A model generated the notes under the pieces. That model was not told where the DNA came from and did no database searches. It was given only the letters and a program-made list of their open reading frames with translations. Shown here in pieces: positions 19,352-27,461 of a stretch of 64,000 bases of DNA. A program made the translations under genes and the position numbers. Numbering within the stretch: the first letter of the stretch is position 1; each line of letters begins with the position of its first letter. The stretch comes from Pseudogemmobacter hezensis (GTDB lineage Bacteria; Pseudomonadota; Alphaproteobacteria; Rhodobacterales; Rhodobacteraceae), in assembly GCF_013155295.1 (NCBI RefSeq), contig NZ_JABJXT010000018.1, forward strand, positions 1 through 64,000, read 5' to 3'.

Positions 19352-22510
<3,159 letters not shown>

Positions 22511-22529
<19 letters not shown>

Positions 22530-22990
22530 TCCGTCCCCCAGAATAAATCGAGCCCGCGCCGGACGCGGGCGATATCGGTTTCCGTCCCCGCCAGCTCAAA
22601 CGAATAGAGCAGGGGGACATTGCATTTAGTGGCGATCACCTTGCCTGCAAGGGCGAAGGTGGCACCGAAATTACGATTGCCGCCCGCGATCACGCCCCTG
22701 ATCCCGGCCCGCAGGCCAGGGTCATTGAGAAAGCGGATCACCTGTTTCGGCACGGCGCCCCGGCCCTCGCCATCAGCGAAGGTCGGACAGATCAGCACAT
22801 ACCCGCCCGCAGCCGTCAGGGCCGACGGATCCGGCCCTGGCTCTTTTGGCGAAATGGGTATGCGGTAAAGCCCACGCTCAGGGGCTGAGGCACTGGCAGC
22901 CTGGGGCCCAGGCCCTGGGCCCCCGAAAAGACGCGTCACAAAACGCAGCGTATTGCCCGATGCAGAAGAGAAAAAGACAAGCCCGGGCAT
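22511..22990 (-). CDS. nrdI: Flavodoxin-like NrdI
   Basis: A 159-residue flavodoxin-like protein needed to assemble the dimanganese-tyrosyl cofactor of NrdF. FMN-binding loop [15 protein letters not shown] is near the N-terminus; [20 protein letters not shown] and [18 protein letters not shown] form the remaining flavin contacts. It lies 10 bp after nrdH and overlaps nrdE. A glycine/proline-rich insert ([18 protein letters not shown], residues 23–40) is slightly longer than I expect for the family. Confidence 0.93.
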
Positions 22991-23000
22991 GGCACGACCC

Positions 23001-23225
23001 TCAGCTTGCGAGACGGCCGATCATATCGGGGCGAAAGCCCGCCCAATGCGCGTCACCGGCGATCACGACCGGGGCCTGACGATAGCCAAGGGCCACGACG
23101 CGGCTCATCGCATCGGCGTCCTCGGTCAGATCAACAACGGAATAGGACAAGCCTTTGGCATCCAGCGCACGGGTGGTTGCGGTGCATTGAACGCATGCAG
23201 GTTTCGAGTAAACGGTGATGGTCAT
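23001..23225 (-). CDS. nrdH: Glutaredoxin-like NrdH
   Basis: A 74-residue redoxin that reduces NrdE. It has the CVQC active site (TVYSKPACVQCTATTRAL), VDLTEDADAMSRV, and the APVVIAGDAHWAGFRPDMI end, where WxGFRP is the NrdH hallmark. It is the first gene of nrdHIEF. The ribosome site is GAAGGATCAGGCA. Its 5' leader is long and contains a possible attenuator and an NrdR-like box. Confidence 0.95.
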   Translation of the reverse strand: MTITVYSKPACVQCTATTRALDAKGLSYSVVDLTEDADAMSRVVALGYRQAPVVIAGDAHWAGFRPDMIGRLAS

Positions 23226-23906: not shown

Positions 23907-24350
23907 TCAGGATATGGCGGGTGGGGCGGCGGGCGGAATCGAATAGGTCATATTGGCCCTGGCCACCGGTTGGCTTTCGCCCTCAGAGAAGATCAGCGCA
24001 TCGGCCACCGCCAGCACCCGCCCCAGCTTCAGGATCCGCACATCGCAGTAAAGGTCGCGCCCGGCGGCGGGCTTGCGCATGAAATCCATCGCGCAGCCGG
24101 TGGTCACGGCCAGCGCAACCGGGCCGATACGCGACAGGATCGCCAGATAGACCGCCACATCGGCCAGGGCGAACATGGTCGGGCCAGAGACGGTGCCGCC
24201 GGGGCGCAGATGCCGCTCTGCCACCTGCAGGCGCAGCCGGATGCCCTGATCGGTGACCTGATCGACGGTGAAATCAGCCGCAACCTGGCCGAATTCCTGC
24301 GTCACAAAGGCGTTCAGCGCCTTTGCATCCATTATAATGGCGGCGGTCAT
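23907..24350 (-). CDS. PaaI-family hotdog thioesterase
   Basis: A 147-residue hotdog-fold protein. LRLQVAERHLRPGGTVSGPT followed by MFALADVAVYLAILSRIG is the PaaI/YbgC-like catalytic region with the Gly-Pro-Thr turn and Asp in the central helix; ALAVTTGCAMDFMRKPAAG forms the next strand. It probably hydrolyses an acyl-CoA of unknown identity. The start follows GGAGAGCATCGCA; the frame upstream of it is not conserved in character. It lies 132 bp downstream of the betaine monooxygenase reductase gene on the same strand and may be read through from it. Confidence 0.8.
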   Translation of the reverse strand: MTAAIIMDAKALNAFVTQEFGQVAADFTVDQVTDQGIRLRLQVAERHLRPGGTVSGPTMFALADVAVYLAILSRIGPVALAVTTGCAMDFMRKPAAGRDLYCDVRILKLGRVLAVADALIFSEGESQPVARANMTYSIPPAAPPAIS

Positions 24351-24481
24351 TGCGATGCTCTCCTCTCTTTGCGGACAAAGAGAGGGTAACAGGGGCTGGA
24401 CCTGCGGCAAGTGCCCAGCGGTCTCAGCCCCCGATTTTCAGCCCCAGATTTTCGGCCTCTGAGTTTCATAAGGCCCGGACG

Positions 24482-25573
24482 TCAGACCTCGACCGTGATC
24501 TTGCCCATCGGGTTCGAGCAGCAGGCCAGGATCCAGCCCTCGGCGATCTCATCATCCGAAATGCCGCCATTATGGACCATATGCACATCGCCATCGGTCT
24601 TTTTGATCTTACAGGTGCCGCAAAGACCAAAGGTGCAGCCCGAGGGGATGTTCAGCCCGGCGCGTTTGGCCACCGCCAGCACCGTATCCGTCTCAGCGCA
24701 GGGCGCGGTAACACCCGAGGCCGCAAAGGTGATCTGGGCGCGGGCATCCTCATCGGGAATCACATCCTCGATCACCGGGGCCTCGGCTTCCGAGCTGACA
24801 GGGGCGCCAAAGCTTTCCTGGTGGTAATGCTCCATGTCAAAGCCCAGCGAGACCAGCATCTCGCGCACCGCCTGCATGAAGGGCTCTGGCCCGCAGCAAA
24901 AGACCTCGCGCTCCAGATAATCCGGGGCCATCAGACCCAGCATGATCTGCGAAAGCCGCCCCTCATAGCCCGACCAGGTCTGGAAGGGATCACATTCCTC
25001 AACGGTAAAGCGCAGCTTCAGCCCCGGCACCCGGTCGGCAAACCCCTCAAGCCGCTTTTTCAGCAGGATCTCGGATGGGCGTTTCGCGGCATGGACAAAG
25101 ACGATGTCGGGCATCTGCCCCGAATCCCAGGCCCAGGTGGTCATCGACATCATCGGCGTGATGCCTGAACCCGCCGAGATAAAGAGATACTTCTTCGCCG
25201 GATGCCGATGCGAGCTGAAGATTCCCGCCGGGCCGTAAGCCTTGATCTTCATCCCCGGCTTCAGATGATCCAGCATCCAGCGCGTGCCGATGGATGTCGC
25301 CTGGGCCTTTACCGTGACCGAGATCGACAGCGGCCGCGAGGGCGAGGAAGAGATCGTATAGGTGCGCTGCACATTGCCCTTTGCGCCCTTTTTCGGATCG
25401 ACCGGCAGATCCAGCGTCACGAACTGGCCCGGCTGATAGTCGAACCAGGCCCCCGAGGGCGCGCGAAAGGTAAAGGTGGCGGTGTCGGCGGTTTCTGGCA
25501 CCACCATCGCGCATTCCAGCAGCTCGGAATCATCCCAGGGCTTTGCCGACCAGTTCAGCTGTTGCTTTGCCAT
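24482..25573 (-). CDS. gbcB: Reductase component of glycine-betaine monooxygenase type
   Basis: A 363-residue electron-transfer protein: FAD/NAD(P) ferredoxin-reductase module first (YQPGQFVTLDLPVD, RTYTISSSPSR, SAGSGITPMMSM, VFCCGPEPFMQAV), then a plant-type 2Fe-2S domain (CTFGLCGTCKIKK with C-x4-C-x2-C, and the last ligand in LACCSNP). It passes electrons to the Rieske oxygenase encoded 3 bp upstream. The pairing and order match GbcA-GbcB, which demethylate glycine betaine to dimethylglycine. Other quaternary-amine demethylases share the plan, so the substrate is an inference. Confidence 0.75.
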   Translation of the reverse strand: MAKQQLNWSAKPWDDSELLECAMVVPETADTATFTFRAPSGAWFDYQPGQFVTLDLPVDPKKGAKGNVQRTYTISSSPSRPLSISVTVKAQATSIGTRWMLDHLKPGMKIKAYGPAGIFSSHRHPAKKYLFISAGSGITPMMSMTTWAWDSGQMPDIVFVHAAKRPSEILLKKRLEGFADRVPGLKLRFTVEECDPFQTWSGYEGRLSQIMLGLMAPDYLEREVFCCGPEPFMQAVREMLVSLGFDMEHYHQESFGAPVSSEAEAPVIEDVIPDEDARAQITFAASGVTAPCAETDTVLAVAKRAGLNIPSGCTFGLCGTCKIKKTDGDVHMVHNGGISDDEIAEGWILACCSNPMGKITVEV

Positions 25574-25576
25574 GAT

Positions 25577-26827
25577 TTACTCCGCCGCCAGCGCCGGGCC
25601 ATTGCCGGAAAGCGGGCTAAGGCGGTCGGCCATCATCCCGGCATACCAGTCGACAAATTGCAAAACGCCCTCTTCCTGGATCGGCGAATAGGGGCCGGGC
25701 TCATAGGCGGGGGAAAGGATGCCCTTCTGGTTTTCCTCGACCACCTGACGATCCTCGTCATTGGTGTTCAGCCAGACGCGGGTCAGGGTTTCGATATCGT
25801 AATCGACGCCCTCGACGGCATCCTTATGCACCAGCCAGTTGGTGGTGACCTGGGTTTCAGTCGGGCTGATCGGCAGGATGCGGAAGACGATGGCATGATC
25901 GCCGAGGAAGTGGTTCCAGGTGTTCGGGTAATGGAAAAACAACAGGCTGCCCGCGTCATTGAAGGGCATAGTGCCCATCCGCTTCGCCACAGCCGCCTTG
26001 GTCGACATCGTATAGCTTTCGGCCCCGTTCAAAAGCGGGATCCGCGCCAGCCGCCATTGCATCTTCGGATGGTTGGTGAAGCGTGAGGGCAGGCCGGCCG
26101 CCTCGCAGCGCTTCCAGTGCTCGATGATATCGGGCGAGGCCGAATCGGGCCCCTCCATCGCCGTCATACGCGGGTTGTCGGAATAGGTGCGGCACAAAGA
26201 CGGGTGCGAGCCGCCGCAGTGATAGCACTCACGGTTGTTCTCGATCACCAGTTTCCAGTTGCCGTTCTCAATGATGGTAGAGCTGAAAGCGACCTTCGCA
26301 TCCGCCAGACCCGAGGGCGCAAGATAAGACATCAGCTTCGGCGCCAGGTCGGAAATGGGCGGCGGGATTTCAGCCAGACAGATGAAGACCATCCCGCCCA
26401 GATCGACGCAATGAACCTTCTTCAGGCCGAACTTCGCGGGATCAAATTCCTCACCCATATCGCGGGCGAAGATCAGCTTGCCCTCAAGGTCATAGGTCCA
26501 TTGGTGATAGGGGCAGACAAGGTTGGTGGTCGAGCCATTTGTTTTCGCGCAAAGCCGCTGGCCACGGTGGCGGCAGATATTGTGGAAGGCGCGGATACGG
26601 CTGTCTTTGCCCTTGATGATAACGACCGGATAGGCCCCCACCTGCAGCGTGGCGAAAGCGCCGGGCTTTTCCAGCTCGCAGGCGGGAATGGCAAAGAGCC
26701 ATTCCTTATACCAGATGTGTTGAAGATCGGCCTCTAACACGCCGGGATCGCAATATAAATCGCGCTCAAGCGCATAGCCGGGCTGGCGCGACAGAATGCG
26801 GTTCAGGGTTTCGGACTGGCTCAGCAT
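25577..26827 (-). CDS. gbcA: Rieske oxygenase, glycine-betaine monooxygenase type
   Basis: The 416-residue catalytic subunit has the Rieske motif ICRHRGQRLC...VCPYHQWTYD (C-x-H and C-x2-H) and the mononuclear iron site ENNRECYHCGGSHPSL. This arrangement, with WKLVIENNRECYHC, is that of Rieske N-demethylases acting on betaines rather than aromatic dihydroxylases. With the reductase gene behind it, glycine-betaine monooxygenase (GbcAB) is the best fit; stachydrine or carnitine-type oxygenases are alternatives. The start follows GCGAAGGACAGCAA. A cobalamin riboswitch lies 135 bp upstream, so expression should fall when adenosylcobalamin is abundant. Confidence 0.8.
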   Translation of the reverse strand: MLSQSETLNRILSRQPGYALERDLYCDPGVLEADLQHIWYKEWLFAIPACELEKPGAFATLQVGAYPVVIIKGKDSRIRAFHNICRHRGQRLCAKTNGSTTNLVCPYHQWTYDLEGKLIFARDMGEEFDPAKFGLKKVHCVDLGGMVFICLAEIPPPISDLAPKLMSYLAPSGLADAKVAFSSTIIENGNWKLVIENNRECYHCGGSHPSLCRTYSDNPRMTAMEGPDSASPDIIEHWKRCEAAGLPSRFTNHPKMQWRLARIPLLNGAESYTMSTKAAVAKRMGTMPFNDAGSLLFFHYPNTWNHFLGDHAIVFRILPISPTETQVTTNWLVHKDAVEGVDYDIETLTRVWLNTNDEDRQVVEENQKGILSPAYEPGPYSPIQEEGVLQFVDWYAGMMADRLSPLSGNGPALAAE

Positions 26828-26903
26828 TTGCTGTCCTTCGCAAGAGCCTGTTTCCCGCATTCCGGGTCTGAACAGGCAGGTTTGACTGACGATGGAGCGC
26901 AGA

Positions 26904-26950
26904 CGACAACCGGCCCGCGCGGGGATGGACCCGCGAGCCTGTTGTCGCTG
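26904..26950 (-). promoter_or_regulatory. Hairpin between riboswitch and gbcA start
   Basis: Minus strand AGCGACAAC pairs with GTTGTCGT, enclosing a second stem CGCGGG/CCCGCG. No T-run follows, so it could be a Rho-dependent or translational expression platform rather than an intrinsic terminator. Confidence 0.4.
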
Positions 26951-26961
26951 TGCCGCCCACC

Positions 26962-27160
26962 GCGGCTCGACATCTCGTGCGAAGGCTGGTTTCCGGGCTT
27001 GGCGAGCGGTCTTTCAACCCCGGCTGCGACACCTTCCCGGGCTCCTCCACCCAGTGGCCTTGTCGCAGCCTCTCTTCCTTACCGTTGCGGGGGCAGCGCC
27101 GGATTTAGACCCTTTCAGACCCGCACCGGCTTCCCAATTCTCCGCTGTTGTCAGCGGCAC
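26962..27160 (-). ncRNA. Cobalamin riboswitch upstream of gbcAB
   Basis: Reading the minus strand: GGGAAGCCGGTG, then AATCCGGCGCTGCCCCCGCA followed by ACGGTAA, then GCCACTGGG, GGGAAGGTGTCGC, and the B12 box region AAGCCCGGAAACCAGCCTT. These are the conserved blocks of the adenosylcobalamin riboswitch in the right order and spacing. The direction is toward gbcA; the divergent thiamin operon has its own TPP element. Confidence 0.9.
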
Positions 27161-27327
27161 CTTGCAAGCCTGAATTGAGCAGAGATCCGGGGGTAAACTT
27201 GTCTGTTTGCGACATGTCGCAAAGCGGAAAAGACAGCCGCCACTTTGCGGCCTGTTTCCCCGCCAAAAGCGTGATTTTGCCGGTTGCCAAACGAATTTCG
27301 GCCGCTTAACGATTAGGCAACTTACTC

Positions 27328-27416
27328 GTTGGGGTGTCCCGGGCAACCGGGGCTGAGAGGCTGAAACGCCAACCCATCGAACCTGATCCGGTTCATACCG
27401 GCGGAGGGAACGGGTA
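27328..27416 (+). ncRNA. TPP riboswitch (THI element)
   Basis: Conserved blocks in order: GGGGTG, GGGGCTGAGAGG, CCCATCGAACCTGATC, and the GGTTCATACCGGCGGAGGGA block. It precedes the thiamin operon by 80 bp. Bound thiamin pyrophosphate is expected to switch the operon off. Confidence 0.97.
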
Positions 27417-27461
27417 GTCTGATCACGCCTCTGGCGCCCAATTCGGGCGGCCATGGCGTCA

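Follow-up and report, generated by a model that had tools for sequence, protein, structure and literature searches.

A variant cobalamin riboswitch precedes a quaternary-amine-type Rieske oxygenase operon in Pseudogemmobacter hezensis and other alphaproteobacteria

A full-length cobalamin riboswitch with a variant core stands directly ahead of a Rieske oxygenase/reductase pair in a stretch of 64,000 nucleotides from Pseudogemmobacter hezensis, here called the window, which was analysed over its whole length. The pairing of switch and gene is conserved across relatives, and the split between variant and canonical cores tracks the gene, not the species. The enzymes resemble the Rieske demethylases of quaternary amines, and the same genome carries MtgB- and MtgC-like genes. 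To explain these results we propose, with moderate confidence, that this operon serves as a B12-free, O2-dependent backup to the corrinoid-dependent demethylation of quaternary amines (MtgBCD) and is repressed by cobalamin.

The riboswitch and the operon behind it

The features of the region, all on the minus strand, are as follows.

26967..27176, minus: cobalamin riboswitch aptamer (RF00174), Rieske-linked variant; Rfam and our own covariance model
27081..27139, minus: 5' half of the variant signature, AATTGGGAA to CAACGGT; exact pattern match, common core letters
26984..26999, minus: 3' half of the variant signature, AGCCCGGAAACCAGCC; other aligned switches have YCAGGAGACCTGCC-like letters
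26952..26966, minus: candidate hairpin GCCGC-GGTGG-GCGGC directly 3' of the aptamer, a possible part of the expression platform
26828..26951, minus: remaining leader, with AAGGA at its end and then ATG; sequence and fold
25577..26827, minus: Rieske oxygenase, 416 aa, GbcA/Stc2-like, ATG at 26827; PF00355, PF00848 (Rieske and ring-hydroxylating catalytic domains)
24482..25573, minus: reductase partner (FAD, NAD, 2Fe-2S), GbcB-like; profile matches
23907..24350, minus: hotdog thioesterase-like gene, ATG at 24350 (longer frame from TTG at 24410); PF03061, TIGR00369

When the whole window was searched with Rfam (cmscan), RF00174 matched at 27176-26967 (-) over its full length (model 1-189 of 189) with 103.7 bits and an E value of 7.2e-25, clearing the gathering score of 31.5 bits despite the variant core. 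This is the sole cobalamin riboswitch that Rfam finds in the window, and one of 8 in the host genome (4.6 Mb, 64 contigs). The covariance model that we built gives the aptamer, itself a member of the training set, 164.0 bits. An earlier sequence-only reading had put a cobalamin riboswitch on the minus strand ahead of the oxygenase and reductase genes and had named the family covariance model as its check; the significant match bears it out. Its interval, 26827-27160, covered the switch region, missed the first 16 aptamer bases and took in the leader (26828-26966) that lies between the aptamer and the Rieske start codon at 26827.

The Rieske/reductase pair spans 24482-26827, and the reductase starts 3 bases past the oxygenase stop. 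The thioesterase-like gene possibly belongs to the same transcript, given its strand and close spacing; it gave no clear sign of conservation when open reading frames were clustered at 81 loci, namely the window and the best 80 of at least 593 relatives. Further downstream on the minus strand (19352-23225) lie the genes of a class Ib ribonucleotide reductase, nrdHIEF, with no riboswitch of their own (nrdH assigned by eye). On the other side, about 140 bases from the cobalamin riboswitch and divergent from it, Rfam finds a TPP riboswitch at 27320-27426 (+) with 72 bits; the genes behind it look, by eye, like thiamine synthesis and transport genes.

Among curated models, GbcA and GbcB match the pair best, though both proteins fall under the cut-offs of these NCBIfam equivalogs (NF058607, 495.6 of 670 bits; NF058606, 368.9 of 500 bits). 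The gbcA-gbcB label of the sequence-only reading was thus right about a Rieske oxygenase with its reductase, of the quaternary-amine type, and went too far in the names: with both cut-offs missed, betaine is not established as the substrate. Of solved chains, 3n0q, a putative dioxygenase, comes nearest to the oxygenase with 562.6 bits, followed by Stc2 (3vca/4qup) with 545; carnitine monooxygenase reaches 118 bits. The oxygenase also has a Cys-X-X-Cys motif (CYHC, residues 201-204) that aligns with the pair in Stc2; part of the Group V Rieske enzymes, which act on quaternary amines, are described as having such a motif near the mononuclear iron (PMC10952381). The enzyme resembles the quaternary-amine Rieske demethylases and probably removes methyl groups from a betaine-like substrate, for which glycine betaine and related compounds, proline betaine among them, are candidates. 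Used as a query against its own genome, the oxygenase matches only its own gene. Proteins over the GbcA cut-off occur in 17 of the 349 genomes of a phylum panel. All 17 lie outside the window's class, within which the panel's best match to that model scores 551 bits.

A variant core that follows the gene

We aligned 59 riboswitches from 50 chosen loci: 41 Rieske-linked switches, 6 of which come from family group f10 or Sinorhizobium, and 18 others, 7 from the host genome and 11 from the vicinity of Rieske loci. Six letters, at alignment columns A84, T91, T92, G154, C295 and A303, are present in all 41 Rieske-linked switches and in 4, 4, 1, 0, 0 and 0 of the 18 others, respectively; a seventh, A299, is found in 40 of 41 versus 2 of 18. 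Since the alignment was fitted to the model and related rows are counted repeatedly, these counts are not independent events. Two pairs of columns change together: columns 154-295 form GC in 41 switches, UA in 17 and CG in 1, and columns 92-303 form UA in 41, AU in 15, CG in 1 and something else in 2. The covariation score was reached by none of 500 shuffles, and sliding abolishes the signal. The canonical core letters (CAACTGTAA, YCAGGAGACCTGCC) are absent from the window switch, two of the changes being swaps that preserve a pair. Of the eight switches in the host genome, the Rieske-linked one alone has the variant letters at columns 154, 295 and 303. The variant is common to Rhodobacterales, Hyphomicrobiales and further families of the class.

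The signature can be searched for with genes disregarded. The pattern that we used, AATTGGGAA, 14-44 bases and CTGCCCCCGCAACGGT, is half of the full signature. In a class panel of 385 genomes it occurs 11 times in 10 genomes and its reversed control 0 times; 7 of these sites precede a Rieske gene (45-100% identity), 3 precede another gene in a single genus and 1 precedes a formaldehyde dehydrogenase gene. In a family panel of 295 genomes it occurs 32 times in 31 genomes, again with 0 for the control, ahead of a Rieske gene at 25 sites (23 identified by tblastn, the window itself, and G118 by coordinates) and ahead of a small protein at 7. With the window, which is in both panels, counted once, the 42 distinct sites comprise 31 Rieske genes, 7 small proteins, 3 TonB receptors and 1 formaldehyde dehydrogenase. 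At the three sites of the single genus the second half of the signature is absent. The site in L222 precedes a TonB-dependent receptor below the cut-off for a B12 receptor, and the other two look the same by eye.

The formaldehyde dehydrogenase is of the glutathione-independent kind (711 bits against a cut-off of 637) and comes from one genome, G900, which has a variant switch at this gene and another at a Rieske gene scoring 635 of 670 bits on the GbcA model. Rieske N-demethylation releases formaldehyde as a by-product, which the dehydrogenase would clear, so that this one instance is in keeping with the proposed chemistry. The host genome has no protein over the formaldehyde dehydrogenase cut-off. 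In G900 (L210:6447-8356) two switches stand back to back, the variant one facing the dehydrogenase gene and a canonical one facing a homocysteine methyltransferase gene (PF02574).

The small protein has about 90-105 residues, with a GF-x-x-W-like motif and a C-terminal RRGGA-x-x-RR-like motif. It lies behind a variant switch at seven loci (L225, L226, L236, L240, L243, L248 and L253) and behind a canonical switch at two (L041:7170-7478 and L099:3281-3583); in L099 its gene is directly upstream of the Rieske operon. A UvrD/PcrA-like helicase gene adjoins it, by eye, in 5 of the 7 variant-switch loci. Two members scanned against Pfam gave no match, nor did a plasmid search with one small protein of this kind.

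Distribution and history of the pairing

The survey of upstream regions that the sequence-only reading had suggested finds the pairing well beyond the host. A scan of named genomes yielded at least 593 relatives, of which the best 80 were used. A full switch stands directly 5' of the Rieske gene in 26 of these 80 according to our covariance model, which was built from 21 riboswitches and had 10 of the 26 switch-bearing relatives in its training set; 54 of the 80 keep the gene without a full switch. A few of the 80 loci have little upstream sequence (357 bases in L026). Rfam agreed each time on 14 of the 80, finding 3 Rieske-linked switches and none that our model had missed, and at 13 further loci it recovered the expected switches, 14 in all. 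Weak, short riboswitch fragments precede the Rieske gene at L079:4184-4291 (36 bits) and L025:4260-4369 (34 bits) and are perhaps decaying switches.

Some Rieske match is found in 240 of the 295 genomes of the family panel, which holds one genome per genus. The loci examined were the 64 with matches above 500 bits and 4 with weaker matches. A full switch is present at 25 of the 64, and L127 has a weak one (52.7 bits). In family group f10, whose proteins branch with an Agrobacterium protein, all 6 loci have a switch. No switch was found at any of the 17 Paracoccus-named loci among the best 80 of at least 593 relatives, at one Agrobacterium locus, L087 (our model and Rfam), or at L188, another locus of the class; and none of the 17 loci with a gene over the GbcA cut-off has one. 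Plasmid-borne genes are of both kinds. A pSymB gene of Sinorhizobium meliloti and a Gemmobacter fulvus plasmid gene have the switch. It is missing from two genes that adjoin a LysR gene, one Stc2-like on pSymA and the other on a Cereibacter plasmid. Both kinds even share a single scaffold of Roseibium aquae (L044 without, L052 with).

On a tree of 79 proteins (two truncated ones of the 81, from switch-bearing L040 and switchless L082, were left out), the switch label changes 8 times against a mean of 22.1 in shuffles, and none of 500 shuffles was as low. A second tree, of 102 proteins and with GbcA as its root (13 of the 17 loci over the GbcA cut-off were used and 4 left out), separates with full support the proteins over the GbcA cut-off from those of the window type. 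Among its alphaproteobacterial rows the f10 group and Agrobacterium are outermost. Besides f10, the switch occurs in two large clades, and a switchless clade of 18 rows forms one side of a starred branch. The simplest reading, not proven, is that the switch is old and was lost several times, Paracoccus being an example; several of the deep forks have support below 95.

At the 81 loci (the window and the best 80 of at least 593), no clusters other than oxygenase and reductase are common to the loci with a switch, where each is present at 26 of 27; the exception is L052, where an overlapping frame was taken in the choice of genes. Loci without a full switch have neighbours of their own: an FMN oxidoreductase gene (PF00724) adjoins 14 of these 54 loci and a TetR regulator gene 12 of them, and each adjoins 0 of the 27 with a switch. 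Near the Rieske gene of Paracoccus kondratievae, Rfam reports a selenocysteine insertion element, SECIS_3 (L010:7571-7629, 80.4 bits).

Expression platform

A run of five T is missing from 23 of 25 leaders (L052 and L078 have one), and an intrinsic terminator was therefore rejected as the platform. By eye, a UCUCC that could mask the ribosome site is present in several Roseobacter leaders, not in all. A hairpin of 4-6 pairs lies 14-18 bases past the box in 19 of 25 loci, in a test so loose that 531 of 1000 shuffles pass it equally. In the window the bases 3' of the box are complementary to the region of the ribosome site, and the other leaders viewed by eye have no such match. Comparison of folds and hairpins across the 25 leaders established neither an L5-L13 kissing loop nor an expression platform. 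We infer that control acts on translation and that its sign is repression, not activation. Cobalamin riboswitches studied so far generally repress, and one that activates has been described (PMC10653944).

Proposed function and alternatives

The same variant switch recurs at the Rieske gene in many relatives, which suggests that the gene stands in for a B12-dependent enzyme. A candidate for this counterpart is present in the host. Its one MTTB protein is MtgB-like, scoring 717 bits against the S. meliloti protein 4yyc, 384 against a glycine betaine methyltransferase and 122 against a trimethylamine one. A corrinoid protein of 252 residues is encoded next to a DUF1638 gene; of three longer B12-binding proteins, one is probably MetH and the other two mutases, judging by length. 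Work on Ruegeria pomeroyi found that both methionine synthesis and B12-dependent betaine demethylation require MtgC and MtgD; it predicts DUF1638 to be a reactivation factor and terms gbcAB rare among marine bacteria (PMC12478193). The MtgB-type protein and the corrinoid protein/DUF1638 genes of the host, taken with the role of MtgC and MtgD in R. pomeroyi, make an oxygen-dependent substitute the best reading.

Plentiful cobalamin would bind the leader RNA and turn the Rieske oxygenase/reductase pair off, and the methyl groups of betaine would leave through the corrinoid system MtgBCD. When cobalamin is scarce, MtgBCD would stall and the leader would open. The Rieske pair would then use NAD(P)H and O2 to oxidise an N-methyl group, which leaves as formaldehyde. 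The sequence-only reading had likewise thought of an oxygen-dependent substitute; what stands of that idea is the switch at the head of a quaternary-amine-type pair and the MtgB-type and corrinoid genes in the genome, and what does not yet stand is betaine. The co-occurrence with mtgB-type genes that it wished to see surveyed does not discriminate. MTTB is present in all 25 switch-bearing genomes of the family panel and in 32 of the 36 others with a strong Rieske match (p 0.14), and with 281 of 295 genomes positive overall we rejected this comparison as uninformative for the stand-in role.

Alternatives differ in what they take the enzyme, or the switch, to be for. The substrate of the pair may be a different betaine, such as proline betaine or hydroxyproline betaine, or quaternary amines in general, with B12 repression serving the balance of methyl or one-carbon units and not the replacement of MtgBCD. 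We consider this unlikely, if worth keeping in mind. Besides the missed GbcA and GbcB cut-offs and the fully supported split between window-type proteins and those over the GbcA cut-off, it draws on the place of Stc2 on the 102-protein tree, beside a switch-bearing Roseobacter clade with up to 70% identity (L048). However, Stc2 sits there on a long branch, it is the pSymB paralogue and not the Stc2-like pSymA locus with its LysR neighbour that has the switch, and the switch-linked Rieske protein of G900 comes close to the GbcA cut-off. Quite doubtful, too, is a view of the Rieske-linked switches as a separate cobalamin riboswitch class with a small regulon, which would be tuned to a corrinoid state that reflects methyl transfer, for example methyl- or aquocobalamin. 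The proposed regulon would hold the Rieske demethylase, the formaldehyde dehydrogenase and the protein of about 95 residues. If it were true, the cell would sense the failure of corrinoid methyl transfer itself and not the adenosylcobalamin pool.

The riboswitch could also serve mainly the downstream nrdHIEF genes, with the Rieske pair as a passenger. These genes are on the same strand, a cobalamin riboswitch stands directly 5' of nrdH-nrdI in L089 and L141 (genes by eye), and nrdE/nrdF-type genes are near several other Rieske loci. Yet a gap of 681 bases separates nrdH from the thioesterase-like gene and contains a terminator-like site, and sequences ahead of nrdH resemble NrdR boxes by eye. 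At L089 and L141 the nrd switches have the canonical core, not the variant one, and the switch goes with the Rieske pair: by automatic clustering, nrdE-type genes are found at 3 and nrdF-type genes at 2 of the 27 loci with a switch (the window and the best 80 of at least 593 relatives). Thus nrdHIEF is highly unlikely as the true target.

The remaining alternative starts from the host's other switches. One of the seven precedes MesX-MesD (L122:5055-7091, G000:C3), and the rest precede, by eye, genes of the B12 synthesis and transport kind (btuB-, btuF-type binding protein-, bluB-, cobW- and cbtA-like) and one unnamed gene. MesX-MesD is a B12-free, folate-independent methionine synthase in which MesD depends on MesX and oxygen and works without B12 and methyl-folate (PMC7857596), and B12-free methionine synthesis in the host is the task of this pair. 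A second idea of the sequence-only reading, that one-carbon supply from betaine makes up for lost MetH activity, looks weak here because MesX-MesD sits behind a cobalamin riboswitch. The same location invites the thought that the Rieske pair cooperates with MesX-MesD, for example by providing a one-carbon unit for B12-free methionine synthesis, and a strong Rieske match is indeed found in 4 of 5 MesX genomes versus 61 of 295 overall (p 0.007). Against it, MesX occurs in just 5 of the 295 family genomes and the switch-bearing Rieske gene in 25, so MesX was rejected as the usual partner, and MesD and MesX are sufficient in E. coli (same source); such cooperation is extremely improbable.

Comparison with known systems

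The proposed backup would perform the same net job as MtgBCD, which needs cobalamin and makes methyl-tetrahydrofolate (PMC12478193), whereas the Rieske route would need O2 and yield formaldehyde. B12-independent isozymes form a class of cobalamin riboswitch targets (PMC3766115). The window switch is like those at metE and nrd operons in having an RF00174 leader and a product without need for B12; it differs in its target, a Rieske N-demethylase-type pair, and in the distinct variant letters of its core. With the glycine betaine monooxygenase GbcAB the pair shares the architecture of Rieske oxygenase and reductase, and departs from it in lying under both cut-offs and in bearing a switch, as none of the 17 genes over the GbcA cut-off does. 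The stachydrine demethylase Stc2 of Sinorhizobium meliloti is close in sequence; the Stc2-like pSymA locus examined is switchless.

Rodionov and colleagues in 2003 reportedly listed an alphaproteobacterial pair of a dioxygenase and a ferredoxin, ardX-frdX, with a B12 element; these are perhaps the same genes, and the bare association of switch and Rieske gene may already have been noted there. To our knowledge, neither a function nor the variant signature was given for ardX-frdX. Our literature searches, which were not aimed at formaldehyde dehydrogenase, returned no report of the switch-Rieske link, the variant or the formaldehyde dehydrogenase link; in the part of PMC12478193 available, the word 'riboswitch' occurs solely in the title of a reference on glycine.

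MtgBCD ties the betaine use of many alphaproteobacteria to B12. If the backup exists as proposed, an O2-dependent bypass would explain how betaine, an abundant osmolyte, continues to be used under B12 scarcity, and the switch-controlled bypass would be a genomic and transcriptomic marker of B12 limitation. With the variant signature the regulon can be recognised independently of protein homology, and ligand selectivity becomes a testable question. Work on the substrate can start directly, since the crystal structure 3n0q, which is 83% identical to the protein of L050, is close to a switch-bearing clade.
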